From Chlorobiota bacterium (lineage in GTDB: Bacteria > Bacteroidota > Chlorobiia > Chlorobiales > Chlorobiaceae), in NCBI GenBank assembly GCA_016868665.1, contig VGGK01000023.1:1-34634 (forward strand): a stretch of 34,634 nucleotides of DNA, given 5' to 3'. Shown one piece after another: positions 3,186 to 34,447 of the stretch (within the stretch, counting starts at the first letter, position 1; each line of letters opens with the position of its first letter). Under the pieces are notes generated by a model, which did not search any database, was not told the origin of the DNA, and saw only the letters and a list, made by a program, of their open reading frames with translations. The position numbers and the translations under genes are program-made.

Positions 3186-3827
3186 ATGCAGGAACTGTTA
3201 TTTACAGGCAGCGAGCTCGCAGAGCGCCCGGCAGGGGACAGTGCAAACTTTTCATGCAGTGATCTCCGTGAGTTGTACGAAAGCTCTAAAACCTGTACGA
3301 AATGCGCGCTTTCGACGACTCGCCGCAACTTCGTTTTCGGTGAAGGAAATCCATCGGCAAGGCTTGTAGTGATTGGCGAAGCGCCGGGAGCCGACGAAGA
3401 TGCTCTTGGTCGGCCCTTTGTCGGACGTTCCGGTCAATTGCTCGACAAAATTCTTATGGCCGTGGGGTTCCGGCGGGAAGAGGTGTTCATCTGCAACATT
3501 CTTAAATGCAGGCCTCCGCAGAACCGCAACCCCTTGCCCGGAGAAATCGAATGCTGTCTTCCCTGGCTGCTGCGCCAGATTGAACTGATAGATCCCGGCA
3601 TGCTGCTCCTGCTCGGCAGGGTTGCCGCCAATTCGCTGCTGGATAACAACCTTTCGCTGGGCGCAATGCGAGGAAAGATCATCCGCTGGAAGCGATTCGA
3701 CTGCGTGGTGACCTATCACCCGGCCGCGCTCCTGCGGAATCCGAACTGGAAACGTGGATGCTGGGAAGACGTCCGGATGATGCGCAGCCATTACGACGCT
3801 CTGCCGGACAAGACGAACAATGCATGA
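3186..3827 (+). CDS. Uracil-DNA glycosylase, family 4 (iron-sulfur type)
   Basis: The enzyme removes uracil from DNA as the first step of base-excision repair. The 213-residue protein has the family 4 layout: an N-terminal extension, Cys37 and Cys40 in CTKC, the GEAPG active-site motif at 64-68 followed by ADEDALGRPFVGRSG, then CNILKCRPPQNRNP, and TYHPAALLR near residues 176-184 as the second active-site motif. Cys37, Cys40, Cys108 and Cys124 fit the four ligands of the expected [4Fe-4S] cluster. The ATG lies 2 bp after the coaBC stop, and the TGA overlaps the dnaB start (ATGA), so translational coupling is likely. Resemblance to phage DNA polymerase-related UDG-like proteins is expected for this family and gives no reason to change the call. 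Confidence 0.93.
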   Translation: MQELLFTGSELAERPAGDSANFSCSDLRELYESSKTCTKCALSTTRRNFVFGEGNPSARLVVIGEAPGADEDALGRPFVGRSGQLLDKILMAVGFRREEVFICNILKCRPPQNRNPLPGEIECCLPWLLRQIELIDPGMLLLLGRVAANSLLDNNLSLGAMRGKIIRWKRFDCVVTYHPAALLRNPNWKRGCWEDVRMMRSHYDALPDKTNNA

Positions 3828-5365
3828 CCATGATACGATCAGCACAGAAACAGAAATCCGACGCCATCGATTTCAGCAAGGATATCGATTTCAGCCGAGA
3901 AAGCAGGGTACCGCCCTATTCCACCGATATCGAACAGGAAGTGCTTGCCTGCCTTCTGCTCGAAGAAGAGCCTGTCGAACAGGTCATACAGATTTTCGGC
4001 GAGAACGGCGCGGAAGTGTTCTACGAAAAGCGGCACCAGATTATTTTCACGGCCATGATGCGGCTCTATCATAAACGGCAGGCTATTGACCTGATCACGG
4101 TCAGCGAAGAACTGCTGAAAATGAACGAGCTGGAACCCGTGGGAGGCCGGCATTACCTTGCCGAACTTTCGGGAAAAGTCATCAGTGCGGCCAACGTGGA
4201 ATATTACGCCCGGCTGGCCAAAGAGAAATATCTTTTCCGGCGGATGATCTCCATATCTGCTAAAATATCCTCTGTCGCATACAGCTCGTCGATGGATATT
4301 TTCGACCTTGTAGAACATGCGTCCCAGCAGTTCTTCAATATTTCGCAGGCCGGCATTAAAAAGAAGGCATCGCCCATCAAGGATCTGGTGAAGAACGGTA
4401 TTCGCATGCTTGAAACCCTCAGAGCATCGCAATCGTCGATCACCGGCGTCGGATCGGGCTTTTCGGAACTCGACCAGCTCACTGCAGGATTTCAGCCATC
4501 CGATATGATCATCATTGCGGCAAGGCCGTCAGCGGGCAAGACCGCATTCTCTCTGGCACTTGCACGAAACGCTGCGGTGGATTTCAATACGCCCGTGCTT
4601 TTTTTCAGTCTTGAAATGGCCGAAGTTCAGCTTGCTATCAGGCTCATGTGCGCGGAAGCCTATGTGGAATCGCAGCTTGTCAGAACCGGCCGTATATCTC
4701 CCGAGATGATGGGCCGGATCATCAACAGCATGGACAAACTCAACGATGCAAAACTCTTTATAGACGATACCCCGGGTATTTCCATTATGGAGCTGTCGGC
4801 AAAAACGCGCCGGATGAAGCAGGAACATAATATCGGCATGGTGGTGGTCGATTACCTGCAGCTGGTAACACCGGTCAGGGATGGAAAATCGAACCGCGAG
4901 CAGGAAATCGCGCAGATATCCCGTTCGCTCAAGGCTCTGGCCAAGGAGCTGAACATTCCTGTCATCGCGCTTGCCCAGCTCAACCGGTCGGTCGAACAGC
5001 GATCGGGCGACCGGAGACCTCAGCTGAGTGATCTCAGGGAGTCGGGCTCCATCGAGCAGGATGCCGACGTCGTCATGTTCCTTTCAAGGCCCGAAATGTA
5101 CGGCAAAGATACATTTGAGGACGGTTCATCCACGAAAAACATCGTCGAAATCGTTATCGGAAAACAGAGAAACGGCCCGATCGGCGACATCAGGCTTCTC
5201 TTCATGAAGAACTACGGACGTTTTCAGTCAACCGCCAACGTCTATATCACCGGCGGAGAACATGAAGAGAGCAGAGATATGCCAAACCACGAAATTCCGG
5301 AATCCCCCGAACCCCGCACGGTTCCTGCCACATCCTTCATCAACCAGGACGATGCACCTTTTTAA
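3824..5365 (+). CDS. dnaB: Replicative DNA helicase DnaB
   Basis: This is the ring-shaped helicase of the replication fork. I start it at ATG 3824, which overlaps the preceding stop (ATGA); ATG 3830 is an alternative. The protein then has 513 residues, a normal length. The N-terminal domain begins near residue 30 with PPYSTDIEQEVLACLLLEE. The RecA-like domain carries Walker A (ARPSAGKTAF, about 232-241), Walker B (VVVDYLQLV, about 340) and the C-terminal LSDLRESGSIEQDADVV motif with the arginine finger region. No intein is seen: the P-loop and Walker B regions, where dnaB inteins usually sit, are uninterrupted. The C-terminal tail of about 35 residues is rich in E and P and is unlikely to be folded. 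The ptsI start follows 9 bp after the stop. Confidence 0.97.
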   Translation: MTMIRSAQKQKSDAIDFSKDIDFSRESRVPPYSTDIEQEVLACLLLEEEPVEQVIQIFGENGAEVFYEKRHQIIFTAMMRLYHKRQAIDLITVSEELLKMNELEPVGGRHYLAELSGKVISAANVEYYARLAKEKYLFRRMISISAKISSVAYSSSMDIFDLVEHASQQFFNISQAGIKKKASPIKDLVKNGIRMLETLRASQSSITGVGSGFSELDQLTAGFQPSDMIIIAARPSAGKTAFSLALARNAAVDFNTPVLFFSLEMAEVQLAIRLMCAEAYVESQLVRTGRISPEMMGRIINSMDKLNDAKLFIDDTPGISIMELSAKTRRMKQEHNIGMVVVDYLQLVTPVRDGKSNREQEIAQISRSLKALAKELNIPVIALAQLNRSVEQRSGDRRPQLSDLRESGSIEQDADVVMFLSRPEMYGKDTFEDGSSTKNIVEIVIGKQRNGPIGDIRLLFMKNYGRFQSTANVYITGGEHEESRDMPNHEIPESPEPRTVPATSFINQDDAPF

Positions 5366-5374
5366 ACAACGAGT

Positions 5375-7174
5375 ATGAGTGAAAACATCACCGGACAATC
5401 CGAACTTCCCGCAATGCCGGAGGAAGGCAGGAAAAAGCATAAAGGAGCCGTTCTTAAAACAGGCGAAGATTCCTATCGCGGTATCGGAACATCCCGGGGT
5501 ATTGCAATAGGAACCTCCTATGCGTTTGAAAAGGAACAGTACGAACACGAGAGCAGAACCATTCTGCCCGAAGAGATCGAACATGAAATTGAACGGTTTG
5601 TCGCCGCATTGCACCGCTCGGAAAAAGAACTGAAAAAAATCGAGCGGGTAACGACGAGAAAACTGGGCAAGGGCTATGCTAACCTGTTCGAAGCCCAGAT
5701 CATGCTGCTGCACGACCAGATGCTGATAGAGGCCATTACTGCCCGGATCCGTAAGGAGCTTAAAGCGGCTTCGCTGGTAATCGATGAGGAATTCGGCAGG
5801 TACCTCGAACATTTCATGAATTCGGATGACCAGCTTTTCCAGGAGCGAGCCTGCGATTTCAGGGATATCAAGGAAAGAATCATCAGGAACCTGCACATCA
5901 AAAAACTGCACTCGTGGATACCCGAAGGCAGTATCGTGGTATCGGAGCATCTGTCGCCGGCAGACGTCATCCTGCTCAGCCGCAGCAACGTCAAGGGATT
6001 CGTCACCGATACCGGGGGTAAAACCTCCCACATCTCGCTTATATGCAAGTCGCTCAACATTCCTATGGTTGTCGGGCTCGGTAATTTCTCGCAGATGGTA
6101 TCGACCGGCAACCGGCTGATCATCGACGGCGGAACCGGCACGGTGGTGATCAATCCTGAAGAGAAAACCGTTGAACGGTATACCCGAAAACGGGACGAGG
6201 AACTGCGATTCGAGGCCGATGCCTCCAGAACGGCTGACCAGCCGGCCTATACCCGGTGCGGCGTAAGAATCTCTTTTTATTCCAATATCGATTTCAAGGA
6301 GGAGCTGACGGGAATGAAGGCCGCCGGTTCGGAAGGGGTTGGGCTTTTCAGAACCGAAAACCTTTTTATCGACGGAACCAAGGTACCCAGGGAATCCGAG
6401 CAGTTCAGCTATTACCTCGAAATGGCTGAAACAATCGCCCCGATGCCGCTTGTGGTGCGTCTCTTCGATATCGGCGGCGACAAGCTGCTCTATTCTCCGG
6501 TAAGGGAACCCAACCCCAATCTCGGATGGAGAGGCATCAGAATACTCATCGATGTTCCGGAAATCCTTGAAAACCAGCTCAGGGCCGTTGTGCGGGCGAA
6601 CATACACGGAAACATCCATATCCTCCTGCCGATGATCACCTCCGTCGAGGAAATACGGTTCATTACGGTAACGCTCGACAAGCTGTGCGATGAATTGAAG
6701 GAAGAGCAGGGACATGCCGAAAAGCCCTTCATCGGTGCAATGATCGAAGTGCCGGCCGCAGTGGAAATGATCGCAGAAATTGCCCGTGAGGTCGATTTCG
6801 TGAGTCTCGGAACAAACGATCTCACGCAGTATACGCTTGCGGTTGACAGGAACAACGTTATCGTACAGGATCTGTTCGACAAGTTCCATCCGGCGATCGT
6901 ACGGCAGGTGCACCGGGTCATCTCTGCAGCCCAGCAAAACAGATGCCGTGTCTCAATATGCGGGGATATGGGTTCCGATCCTCTTGCGCTGCCTTTCCTC
7001 GTTGGATGCGGCCTTCGCAAGTTCAGTATTGTAAGCGCCGATATAGCGAAACAGAAAAAACTCGTATCGGCCATGACCATTGCCGATACTGAAATGCTTG
7101 CTGCCGAGTGCCTTAAACTCGATTCGGCAGAAAAAATCAAGGGCCGCCTGGAAGAGTTCCTGGCAGCCCTGTAA
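5375..7174 (+). CDS. ptsI: Phosphoenolpyruvate-protein phosphotransferase (PTS enzyme I)
   Basis: Enzyme I takes phosphate from PEP and passes it to HPr. The 599-residue protein has the normal family order: an N-terminal HPr-binding helical part starting at GIGTSRGIAIG, the phosphohistidine swivel domain with GGKTSHIS (His219), then the PEP-binding barrel with GLFRTENLF, FDIGGDKLL, GWRGIRIL, SLGTNDLTQY and the active-site cysteine in SICGDMG (about residue 529). It has about 35 extra N-terminal residues before the domain. No HPr or sugar-specific EII gene is in the window, so a regulatory rather than sugar-uptake role is possible, but this cannot be decided here. It is the last gene of the plus-strand cluster; its stop lies 20 bp from the stop of the convergent ppiD-like gene. 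Confidence 0.95.
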   Translation: MSENITGQSELPAMPEEGRKKHKGAVLKTGEDSYRGIGTSRGIAIGTSYAFEKEQYEHESRTILPEEIEHEIERFVAALHRSEKELKKIERVTTRKLGKGYANLFEAQIMLLHDQMLIEAITARIRKELKAASLVIDEEFGRYLEHFMNSDDQLFQERACDFRDIKERIIRNLHIKKLHSWIPEGSIVVSEHLSPADVILLSRSNVKGFVTDTGGKTSHISLICKSLNIPMVVGLGNFSQMVSTGNRLIIDGGTGTVVINPEEKTVERYTRKRDEELRFEADASRTADQPAYTRCGVRISFYSNIDFKEELTGMKAAGSEGVGLFRTENLFIDGTKVPRESEQFSYYLEMAETIAPMPLVVRLFDIGGDKLLYSPVREPNPNLGWRGIRILIDVPEILENQLRAVVRANIHGNIHILLPMITSVEEIRFITVTLDKLCDELKEEQGHAEKPFIGAMIEVPAAVEMIAEIAREVDFVSLGTNDLTQYTLAVDRNNVIVQDLFDKFHPAIVRQVHRVISAAQQNRCRVSICGDMGSDPLALPFLVGCGLRKFSIVSADIAKQKKLVSAMTIADTEMLAAECLKLDSAEKIKGRLEEFLAAL

Positions 7175-12971: not shown

Positions 12972-13057
12972 GCCGAAGTGGCGGAACTGGTAGACGCCCA
13001 GGACTTAAAATCCTGTGTTCAGCAATGGACGTGCGGGTTCGATCCCCGCCTTCGGCA
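12972..13057 (+). tRNA. tRNA-Leu (anticodon UAA)
   Basis: The acceptor stem GCCGAAG pairs with CTTCGGC. The D-arm region reads TGGCGGAACTGGTAGACGC, and the anticodon stem CAGGA/TCCTG holds the loop CTTAAAA with anticodon TAA. A long variable arm (GTGTTCAGCAATGGAC region) marks a class II tRNA. The T arm is GCGGG-TTCGATC-CCCGC. The discriminator is A, as expected for leucine. The bases that follow are CCC, so the 3' CCA is not encoded and must be added by nucleotidyltransferase. It is 86 nt long. Confidence 0.95.
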
Positions 13058-30825: not shown

Positions 30826-30999
30826 TTCGCTTGCGGGATTGCAGAAAACCTCAACCCTCCAGTGACGGGCTGAATCGTCCGCAAAAACGCTGTTCTGTTC
30901 TCAGCCGGACCACCCCCGGCGCCCATCTATCTGAACATGCTATATTTTGATAGACAGGTAAAGAAGCCATACCTTACCAACCAAAAGGAGGTATGAATC

Positions 31000-31305
31000 A
31001 TGGCGAACCAACAATCACGCCGTCAATACGACAAACAGTTTAAAATCGATGCCGTCAAGCTCACGCTTAAAGGCGATAAAACCGCCAAGGAAATTGCTGA
31101 TGCCCTCGGGATCAACCCACATGTGCTGTATCGTTGGAGGCTCAAGTACATGGCATCAAAGGAAAAAGCTTTTCCTGGAACCGGTAATCCTAAGGATGCT
31201 GAGGCTGAAAAAATACGGAAACTTGAACGGGAGCTCCGGTTAGTAACCGAAGAGCGAGAAATATTAAAAAAAGCCTGCGCTGTGTTCGCGAGGGAAAATC
31301 ACTGA
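31000..31305 (+). CDS. IS3-family transposase OrfA (helix-turn-helix)
   Basis: The 101-residue protein is the DNA-binding half of the IS3 transposase. It has the HTH_Tnp_1 pattern [19 protein letters not shown], then [24 protein letters not shown], and a coiled leucine/glutamate-rich C terminus ([22 protein letters not shown]) that normally drives dimerisation. A strong AAAGGAGG lies about 10 nt before the ATG. It ends at 31305, after the A7 site at which the ribosome can slip into the -1 frame that is orfB. Confidence 0.95.
31266..31272 (+). other. A7 slippage site for the OrfAB fusion
   Basis: The OrfA frame reads TTA AAA AAA GCC. A -1 slip over A_AAA_AAA gives AAA AAA AGC CTG, which is the frame of orfB (…[13 protein letters not shown]). 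IS3 elements make the active transposase by this kind of programmed frameshift. Confidence 0.75.
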
Positions 31306-31398
31306 TTTATAGTTTTATCAGTGATTACAAGAATACGTTTGCTGTCAGGACGATGTGCCGAGTGCTCGGCATCTCTGTCAGCAGCTATTATGCGTGGA
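31266..31398 (+). CDS. IS3 transposase OrfB, 5' exon
   Basis: In the -1 frame relative to orfA, the 5' part of orfB reads [20 protein letters not shown] and then [15 protein letters not shown]. This is the typical OrfB start, including the conserved YYAW motif. The frame breaks off at 31398, where the group II intron begins. The last base (A) plus the first two bases after the intron (CA) give an ACA threonine codon. OrfB has no separate start codon visible that would serve alone; expression is expected through the frameshift fusion. Confidence 0.9.
31385..31398 (+). other. IBS2 and IBS1, exon sites recognised by the intron
   Basis: IBS2 CTATTA (31385-31390) can pair with TGATAG at 31631-31636 (five Watson-Crick and one G-U pair). 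IBS1 CGTGGA (31393-31398), ending exactly at the splice site, can pair with TCCATG at 31700-31705 (five Watson-Crick and one G-U). The order and spacing fit EBS2 and EBS1 of a group II intron domain I. Confidence 0.65.
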
Positions 31399-31950
31399 GT
31401 GCGACGCGAAGTCGCGTATTTGAACTGTTCTTTGTAGAACCAGTTGTGCCGTCAACTGCCCCCACCGGCACATGCAGGATGAGTAATCGCCCTGTGTGAA
31501 GCTGCCGGAAACGTACCCGCGGGAAACCGTAGGCCGCCCCGTGAGGGAGAGCCGAATCTGCCAGTAGCAGGCGGAGAGGGGCAAGGGAGAGGATGGTATG
31601 GTTAACCTAGGTGAATCGTCGCAACCATCGTGATAGTAAGCAAGCGAAAGCTCACTGACAACGCTTGGACCAAAAGGTACGCGGGCAGGTATGCTCCCTT
31701 CCATGAGAGGCACACACGGCCAACAAATCCCGCCGGTGGAAAGACGGAACCTAACCCATCCGCATGTTCGATACGCGGAACACGGAAACCCCGTATTTTC
31801 GCCCGGTAATACCGGGCAATCCAACCGCAAGGACGGACTATGGAAATGCGGGCACAAGAACGAGGAAGAAGCGAATGCCGTCCTGTAATGGGGCGGATAG
31901 GGGTTGCAACATCACCCCACGTGAAAACGGGCAGACGTCCTCATGGTCTC
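31399..31950 (+). ncRNA. Group II intron ribozyme, 5' domains I to III (approximate)
   Basis: This G+C-rich non-coding stretch opens with the stem GCGAC-GCGAA-GTCGC directly after GT. It contains the candidate exon-binding sites EBS2 (31631-31636) and EBS1 (31700-31705). Many short inverted pairs are visible, for example CTGCCAGTAGCAGGCGG, but I did not fold the whole domain. The end of domain III is estimated; domain IV holds the protein gene from 31996. Confidence 0.7.
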
Positions 31951-31995
31951 GGATTGCAAGAACCTTGAAGAACCTCCCATAGAGAAGGAAAGCAA

Positions 31996-33477
31996 ATGGA
32001 TACGGTAAATACTGTATGTGCACCTTCCGGACTCGACTGGAATGGGATCAACTGGTCCCGGGCCAAGCGACAGGTCCGGAGGCTTCAGACACGTATTGCA
32101 AAGGCAACGAAGGAAGGCCGTCATGGCAAGGTGAAAGCCTTGCAGTGGTTGCTGACCCACTCGCACAGCGGCAAAATCCTTGCCGTCAAACGGGTGACGG
32201 ATAACCGGGGGAAAAACACCCCGGGAGTCGACGGAGACGTCTGGAAAACATCAAAAGCAAAGGCCAATGCCGCAGCATCGCTGAAACGGAGGGGGTACAA
32301 GCCCCTTCCCCTTCGAAGGATCTACATCCCGAAGAAGAACGGCAAGCAACGACCTCTCGGCATCCCAACCATGAAAGACAGGGCCATGCAAGCGCTCTAC
32401 TGGCTTGCACTGGAACCTGTAGCGGAAACCACTGCGGATGGCAACTCGTACGGGTTCCGGCCATGGCGGTCAACAGCCGACGCGGCAGAGCAGTGTTTCA
32501 TCTGCCTCGCCAGACGCGATTCCGCACAGTGGATCTTGGAGGCCGATATTGCCGGGTGCTTCGATGCCATCAGCCACCAATGGCTGATCGACAACATCCC
32601 CATGGATACGCCGATCCTCCACAAATGGCTGAAGGCAGGCTTCGTGTTCAACAACGAGCTCTTTCCCACAGCCTCGGGCACGCCGCAAGGCGGTATCATC
32701 AGTCCGGGACTGGCAAACATGTGCCTTGACGGCCTCGAGCACGCGCTTGCGGAAGCATTTCCGCGAGCCCGTGGCCTGAAAATGCACTTGGTGCGTTACG
32801 CTGACGACCTCATCATCACAGGAAACTCGAAAGAGTGGCTGGAACATGAGGTCATGCCAGTACTGGTCGACTTCCTTAAAGATCGAGGGCTCCGGCTCTC
32901 AGAGGAAAAAACCAGGGTAACGCACATTACGGAAGGAATCGATTTCCTTGGCTGGAACATGCGCAAATACGGCGGCAAGCTATTTATCAAGCCCTCGAAA
33001 GCGAACATCAAGGCCCACCTCACCAAGGTGCAGGGAATCATCAAGGCGAACAAGACGATCAAACATTCGGATCTTATCGGTATCCTCAACCCCGTCCTGC
33101 GGGGATGGGCGAACTACCACCGGCACAGTGTCGCAAAAAAAGTCTTTGCTCGAAACGACCACGAGGTCTGGTCAATGCTCTGGAAATGGGCAAAACGACG
33201 ACACCCAAATAAAGGTCTTCGATGGATCATGGACAAATACTTCCACACCAGAGGAGGCAGAAAATGGATGTTCGTCGCCGAAGAGGCAGACCGACAAGGA
33301 GAGCGACAGCTCTTTCTGGAAGCTAGCATGCCGATCCGGCGACATGTCAAAATCAAAACGAAGGCAAACCCGCACGATCCAGTGTGGAGGGAGTACTTCA
33401 GCGCTCGTAGAACCCAGATGTGGAAAACGACACCGTTGAGTTGCCGGGTGCCTCACGGCGCCTTACTCGAGGCTTGA
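31996..33477 (+). CDS. ltrA: Group II intron reverse transcriptase/maturase (LtrA-like), without HNH domain
   Basis: The 493-residue protein helps the intron to splice and copies it back into DNA. It has the N-terminal region (GINWSRAKRQVRRLQTRI), NTPGVDG (74-80), LPLRRIYIPKKNGKQRPLGIP, LEADIAGCFDAI, TPQGGIISPGLAN, the catalytic RYADDLII with YADD at 268-271, GIDFLGWN and the maturase X domain (LRGWANYHRHSVAKKVF). GAAGGAAA lies just before the ATG. Relatives of this type normally continue, after the RRHVKIK...ANPHDPVW segment, into an HNH endonuclease with CPVC and HH motifs. Here the protein ends after about 40 more residues, with no such motif. The stop TGA overlaps the first two bases of domain V. 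Confidence 0.95.
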   Translation: MDTVNTVCAPSGLDWNGINWSRAKRQVRRLQTRIAKATKEGRHGKVKALQWLLTHSHSGKILAVKRVTDNRGKNTPGVDGDVWKTSKAKANAAASLKRRGYKPLPLRRIYIPKKNGKQRPLGIPTMKDRAMQALYWLALEPVAETTADGNSYGFRPWRSTADAAEQCFICLARRDSAQWILEADIAGCFDAISHQWLIDNIPMDTPILHKWLKAGFVFNNELFPTASGTPQGGIISPGLANMCLDGLEHALAEAFPRARGLKMHLVRYADDLIITGNSKEWLEHEVMPVLVDFLKDRGLRLSEEKTRVTHITEGIDFLGWNMRKYGGKLFIKPSKANIKAHLTKVQGIIKANKTIKHSDLIGILNPVLRGWANYHRHSVAKKVFARNDHEVWSMLWKWAKRRHPNKGLRWIMDKYFHTRGGRKWMFVAEEADRQGERQLFLEASMPIRRHVKIKTKANPHDPVWREYFSARRTQMWKTTPLSCRVPHGALLEA

Positions 33478-33550
33478 GCCGTGTGCGGTAAAAGCCGCAC
33501 GCACGGTTCTTAGGGGACGGTGGCGCAGCAATGCGTCGCCGTTACCCGAT
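33476..33550 (+). ncRNA. Group II intron domains V and VI with branch-point adenosine
   Basis: Domain V is exactly 34 nt (33476-33509): GAGCCGTGTGCG pairs with CGCACGCACGGTTC around a short GTAAAAGC apex. Domain VI (33513-33547) is a 15-bp stem with a GCAA loop; the only unpaired base on its 3' side is A33544, 7 nt from the 3' splice site counting the final T as 1, which is where the branch-point adenosine sits. The intron then ends GAT at 33550. Confidence 0.93.
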
Positions 33551-34335
33551 CACAGCGTCCGGAAAGCAACAGAAAGCAAGAGAAACGGAAGATCATGACG
33601 GCTATCAGGGAAATCCATAAAGAGAGCCTCGAAACCTATGGAAGTCCCAGGATTGCCAATGCTTTACAGAAGAAGGGTTTTCAGTGCAGCCGCCCTCGGA
33701 CAGCCCGTTTAATGCGAGAGTTGGGTATTCGTGCAAAATGTGCCAAGAAGTTCAAGGTCACGACTGACTCGAACCACAATGAGCCCATAGCACAAAACCT
33801 CCTGGGGCAGGAGTTCTCGGTAGAAATGCCTTTCGAAGTATGGACGAGTGATATCACGTACATCCGTACCGCGACCGGTTGGCAGTATTTGACGGTGATC
33901 ATGGAACTCTTCAATCGGGAGATCATCGGGTATTCTCTCAGTAACAACCTTAAGACCGAAACGACAGTCAATCCTGCTCTGGACATGGCTGTACGGCATC
34001 GGCAGCCACCGTCAGGAGTCATTTTCCATTCAGACCGTGGCGTCCAATATGCCAGCAAATCGTTCAGGAAAAAGTTGGCAGATTACCATTTTATCCAAAG
34101 TATGAGCGGGAAAGGAAACTGCTATGATAATGCCGTAACGGAAACGTTTTTCAAGACATTGAAAACCGAGTGGATCTACGGAAAAAAATTCCGTAACCAA
34201 GAGGAACTTCGGCAGAGTCTTTTTGAGTACATCCAGATCTTTTATAACCGGAAAAGGGCACATTCTACCTTAGGGTATCTTGCACCAGCAGAGTATTTAC
34301 GCAATTATTATCAATCAAAGACTTTGGCTTCTTAA
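33551..34335 (+). CDS. IS3 transposase OrfB, 3' exon with DDE catalytic core
   Basis: From the exon junction the frame continues [20 protein letters not shown], then [15 protein letters not shown] (the usual N-terminal helical region) and the rve integrase core. The catalytic residues are Asp at 33850-33852 (VWTSDITYI), Asp at 34033-34035 ([10 protein letters not shown]) and Glu at 34141-34143 ([14 protein letters not shown]), spaced D-60-D-35-E as in IS3 transposases. The C terminus ends …[21 protein letters not shown]. The stop lies inside the right terminal repeat. No frameshift or stop is seen, so the spliced gene should be intact. Confidence 0.94.
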
Positions 34336-34447
34336 ATAGTCTATTTTTTTCTTGCAATTCCAGTTTTAACATTTAAGGGTATGGATCAACGCCTCGGAGA
34401 CTTCCAGGCACAGTGGATCATGCCTGTTGTTGTCAAATCCTCCAGCT

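Follow-up and report, generated by a model that had tools for sequence, protein, structure and literature searches.

Contig VGGK01000023.1 of a draft genome of the green sulfur bacterium Chlorobium (assembly GCA_016868665.1; 2.38 Mb, 100 contigs) carries an insertion sequence (IS) of the IS3 family, and the transposase gene of this element was found to be interrupted by a group II intron that encodes its own reverse transcriptase (RT). The window, that is, the whole stretch of DNA analyzed, is 34,634 nt long, and all positions refer to it unless another locus (L) or contig (C) is named; a slash within a sequence or a pair of positions marks the junction or insertion point. Relatives were searched for in 101 genomes (that of the window and its relatives), among them the congeneric Ca. 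Chlorobium antarcticum, labeled G036 (loci L034 and L114), and the other Chlorobium genomes G017, G025 and G011. The features of the host IS are as follows.

30932..34362, + strand: IS3-family insertion sequence, ends TG..CA from the alignment with the G036 and G017 copies; match to the IS3 transposase model NF033516
30932..30955, + strand: left terminal inverted repeat (imperfect), TGAACATGCTATATTTTGATAGAC, read off the sequence
31000..31305, + strand: orfA, 101 amino acids, helix-turn-helix (Pfam HTH_Tnp_1, 1.1e-16; NF033516)
31266..31273, + strand: A7G slippery run, predicted -1 frameshift from orfA to orfB; the frame stays open through YYAW after the -1 shift
31272..31398, + strand: 5′ exon part of orfB in the -1 frame, ending in ...SSYYAW and the first base of a Thr codon
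33551..34335, + strand: 3′ exon of orfB, integrase core with the DDE residues (Pfam rve, 1.1e-22; NF033516, 304 bits)
34339..34362, - strand: right terminal inverted repeat (imperfect), TGGAATTGCAAGAAAAAAATAGAC, read off the sequence

The ends of the IS were set at 30932 and 34362 because the aligned copies of G036 and G017 carry 3-bp target duplications (GCT and AAA, respectively); the first-pass annotation had placed the element at 30948-34346 and its spliced mRNA at 1.25 kb, and the intron-less element now measures 1,279 bp. No target-site duplication, which spans 3-5 bp in IS3 elements, was visible around the window copy. Of the other hallmarks of IS3 elements, overlapping orfA and orfB, a -1 frameshift signal, a DDE core and terminal repeats are present. 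When the intron was removed, joining position 31398 to 33551, and the -1 shift at A7G was applied, an OrfAB protein of 394 amino acids was obtained, in which the orfB halves meet in one frame (...SSYYAW-T-QRPES...) and the catalytic residues D234, D295 and E331 are spaced by 60 and 35 residues (D-60-D-35-E), as the same annotation had proposed. The intron splits the Thr134 codon behind its first base, directly past the YYAW codons, and its annotated orientation, on the + strand like orfB, is right for splicing. It comprises the following parts.

31399..33550, + strand: group II intron, 2,152 nt (RF02012, RF00029; empty copies contiguous at 31398/33551)
31996..33477, + strand: intron-encoded RT/maturase, 493 amino acids, motif YADD (TIGR04416, 370 bits; Pfam RVT_N, RVT_1 and GIIM)
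33476..33509, + strand: domain V hairpin with a two-base bulge (RF00029; fold)
33513..33547, + strand: domain VI hairpin, in which the branch-point A (33544; base 7 counted from the 3′ end) bulges out (fold)

The 5′ end of the intron at 31399 is GTGCG, which fits the GUGYG start, and the 5′ intron domains were matched by Rfam RF02012 at 31440-31582 (102.8 bits). The match to RF00029 (domains V and VI, 57.2 bits) has its 3′ end exactly at 33550, and the folding z-score of these two domains is -5.2. The open reading frame of the RT/maturase lies in domain IV and is open, with a dN/dS of ∼0.29, and the enzyme is predicted to be active; no HNH endonuclease domain was found in it by Pfam and TIGR profile searches. 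The nearest solved structure to the RT is 6me0 (633 bits), which we take to be TeI4h of Thermosynechococcus.

The intron boundaries are exact to the base, given that empty copies of the IS cross the predicted junction without a gap. In G017, G025 and G011, a 76%-identical IS without the intron was matched unbroken from query position 459 to 2612, which corresponds to 31398/33551 in the window. In the genome of the window itself, contig C39 (L002 2308-3808) carries a 91%-identical intron-less IS3 copy that reads ATTATGCGTGGA/CACAGCG. The comparison with empty copies that the first-pass annotation had proposed has therefore been run: all four genomes' copies give the predicted junction, and no copy contradicts the joined sequence. 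Together with the Rfam domains, the three congeneric copies that are contiguous at the joint bear out the claim of an intron at 31399-33550 nested in an IS3 orfB. The nested element is real and structurally intact.

The upstream exon pairs with the intron through exon-binding sites (EBS) in the intron and intron-binding sites (IBS) in the exon, which were located as follows.

31386..31398, + strand: intron target, with IBS2 TATTAT at 31386-31391 and IBS1 CGTGGA at 31393-31398 (6/6 pairing with EBS2 and EBS1)
31633..31638, + strand: EBS2, ATAGTA (6/6 with IBS2; covariation)
31700..31705, + strand: EBS1, TCCATG (6/6 with IBS1; covariation)
31741, + strand: tentative EBS3 (A), the best column, with 10/13 Watson-Crick pairs with the +1 base; weak, given that 78 of 2000 permutations reach that somewhere

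The covariation was assessed with 5,000 permutations in 16 intron copies of this family, which with few exceptions lie at unrelated sites. In the EBS1 region, 89 of 96 positions of the best 6-mers pair with the respective exon (permuted mean 67.2), and in the EBS2 region 80 of 96 do so (permuted mean 62.8); in neither case was any of the permutations as good. The 5′ boundary of the intron is thereby supported independently. The register of EBS2 is ambiguous, given that GTGATA at 31630-31635 likewise pairs 6/6. The anatomy, the exact boundaries, the restored frame and the target pairing with covariation are thus directly supported.

A related intron was found in G036 at the identical base and codon of an IS3 element, and the two IS lie in unrelated flanks, given that the window matches the G036 contig in the IS region only. 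The same codon is occupied in two different IS3 lineages, and the introns are much younger than the split of their hosts: identity is 89.5% between the introns and 76% between the IS exons, the synonymous divergence (NG86 dS) of the RT is 0.27 as against 1.55 in the 3′ exon of orfB, and fourfold sites differ at 15% in the RT and 46% in orfB. The G036 IS is 76.2% identical to the window IS and 77.4% identical to the empty G017 IS, i.e., the window IS is no closer. Because the intron copies diverged much later than the host IS, the intron most likely entered the two IS3 lineages separately through its own mobility. The YYAW-plus-intron junction was found in 2 of the 394 genomes of a phylum-wide sample (the genome of the window and G036), and of the top 80 RT relatives from species genomes the G036 record alone showed it in a search with this OrfAB. 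When the pattern of YYAW followed by the intron start was sought in viral contigs, 10 matches were obtained, none of them near an RT or an IS3 element, and these were taken as chance. In G036, the orfB frame is disrupted where the first catalytic Asp is encoded (L114 7100-7200), so that this transposase, and with it the IS, is probably inactive even if the intron is spliced, barring an assembly error. We tentatively propose that a Chlorobium intron lineage may have specialized on the YYAW codons common to IS3 transposases, tracking the motif between IS3 lineages, with EBS1 adjusted to the respective host (a T-to-C change in EBS1 versus A to G at exon position -1).

The nested arrangement very probably reflects a mobile group II intron that retrohomed into a conserved IS3 orfB target, whose splicing would restore the transposase and whose ribonucleoprotein (RNP) could invade the same site elsewhere. 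The intron, with an RT of a TeI4h-like lineage, would have retrohomed into the orfB target TATTATGCGTGGA/ (the YYAW-T codons), recognized via EBS2-IBS2 and EBS1-IBS1 pairing; the RT/maturase would aid splicing of the intron out of the orfAB transcript in the cell, by which the transposase frame would be exactly restored, and the excised RNP would then be free to invade the same site in further IS3 elements. Several observations weigh against this explanation. The C39 copy, the only other target in this genome (one mismatch), is unoccupied, and the candidate EBS3 A, itself a weak assignment, is mismatched in the window copy, where the 3′ exon has C at position +1. Moreover, RmInt1 of Sinorhizobium meliloti (class D/IIB3), another IS-resident intron, sits in ISRm2011-2 and correctly ligates <1% of exons in vivo, which was read by the authors as limiting the spread of the IS (PMC4238363); because of this, the window IS may be largely silenced as well. 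It is conceivable, although on the whole doubtful, that the intron silences its IS in practice, exon ligation being rare, the host being immobilized and the intron persisting by homing alone. Without splicing, the orfB reading ends 33 codons into the intron, and this genome holds a single composite, without a target duplication; however, OrfA and OrfB of the window copy are still open, so that decay of this IS has not begun.

The first-pass annotation had further suggested that movement of the IS would spread the intron. The frame, DDE core, terminal repeats and frameshift signal of the window copy are all intact, so the composite may still transpose, and the clean 3-bp target duplication of the G036 composite fits a jump before or after the gain of the intron. 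Nevertheless, transposition of the composite as a unit, after splicing has restored the transposase, is unlikely to be the main route of intron spread: just two composites turned up in ∼60 Chlorobium genomes, with IS 76% alike and introns 89.5% alike, a second composite of the same IS was not found among them, and the G036 copy looks inactive by its frame. The suggestion is thus unsupported, and because the same-site introns are far more similar than their host IS, which belong to different IS3 lineages, the comparative evidence favors the view that the intron homes into IS3 elements rather than being carried by the IS. The identical insertion base in the window and G036 could also be explained by one insertion in a common IS3 ancestor, from which both introns descended while the IS evolved faster. 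This is very improbable, given that the synonymous divergence is more than 5 times larger in orfB than in the RT and that the IS of G017, G025 and G011, at a similar distance, are empty, so that several losses would be needed. The locus is a clean natural instance in which a mobile element lies within another one: matched empty sites exist for it, as does a second, probably separate acquisition at the same codon. Setting the divergence of the intron against that of its host IS distinguishes homing from co-transposition, a distinction that no single nested case allows.

In the intron-less copy on C39, only the last 11-12 nt before the intron site are left of the 5′ exon, and this remnant corresponds approximately to IBS1 plus IBS2. 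Intron-mediated exon shuffling was considered for this copy and rejected, given that the glycosyltransferase homologues in six congeners are without the motif; the 12 nt derive from the IS, and the copy therefore seems simply truncated. The C39 IS is fused in frame to a glycosyltransferase fragment, and another transposase gene also interrupts that glycosyltransferase gene. The sequence GATTTATATCG is present on either side of the C39 IS.

ISRm2011-2, the host of RmInt1, is a member of the IS630 family. Like the window intron, RmInt1 is without an endonuclease domain and lies inside an IS transposase gene that depends on its splicing (PMC4238363, PMC8914252), but its host is not an IS3 element, it belongs to another intron class, and its splicing was measured, whereas that of the window intron is predicted. 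Other mobile elements are frequent hosts of group II introns, and the targeting of IS3 transposases has a precedent: E.c.I4 of Escherichia/Shigella, listed as class A in an analysis of open reading frames without an endonuclease region (PMC3552965), inserts, like the window intron, at specific positions within IS3 transposases in E. coli (PMC3522654). The view that the insertion is unusual therefore does not stand for the targeting of IS3 transposases as such; it may hold for the YYAW site, at which no insertion was found elsewhere in the literature, only open-access papers being covered, so that a published case is possible. Likewise, nothing relevant on an IS3-targeting group II intron in Chlorobium was found in the open-access literature. 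In the E. coli plasmid pE15-3 (L132 2208-4503), a group II intron lies in an IS3-type orfB, downstream of an ALIL frameshift pseudoknot, at VADFTY/V, which adjoins the first catalytic Asp; this intron, which is not equated here with E.c.I4, has an RT 31.6% identical to that of the window intron and differs in its site (DFTY/V, not YYAW). Introns of the TeI4h/TeI4c lineage of Thermosynechococcus elongatus, to which the closest solved RT belongs, have both an IS and other introns among their homing targets (PMC2882425), as do relatives of the window intron. TeI4h, however, occupies a tRNA gene, and an endonuclease (En) domain is part of its RT (PMC2882425), which the window RT is without. IStrons also combine a ribozyme and an IS within one unit (PMC4227781), but in these a group I intron is fused to the end of the IS and the IS transposase drives movement, whereas in the window a group II intron with its own RT splits the transposase gene. 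The conserved YYAW codons (here) thus join the other sites in IS3 transposases that are used by group II introns, EV/FYN and V/TE (L039) and DFTY/V (the E. coli plasmid).

Relatives of the window intron were also observed at other sites. In two Chlorobium genomes, a relative lies within the RT reading frame of another group II intron, at conserved FDF/LGW codons, forming twintrons at the following loci.

L035 1336-3491 (G024 C92)
L036/L008 (G057 C41)

At L045, two group II introns are arranged head to tail, the first at 3402-5564 and the second beginning at the very next base, 5565. At L039 (1-4619; G002 C18), an IS3 orfB carries two different group II introns, at V/TESFF and EV/FYNRKR, ∼110 nt apart, the first of which seems rearranged and combines pieces of at least two RTs. 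Relatives of ∼800 nt without an RT reading frame were observed at L024 1331-2129 (- strand), L025 1502-2297 and L023; these possess EBS of their own, are intact at the 5′ as well as the 3′ end, and are perhaps mobilized in trans. A second group II RT in the genome of the window (L135, contig C1 49174-50262) contains one in-frame TAG stop. Elsewhere in the window, a tRNA gene at 12972-13057 on the + strand (Rfam RF00005, 58 bits) is unconnected with the nested element.
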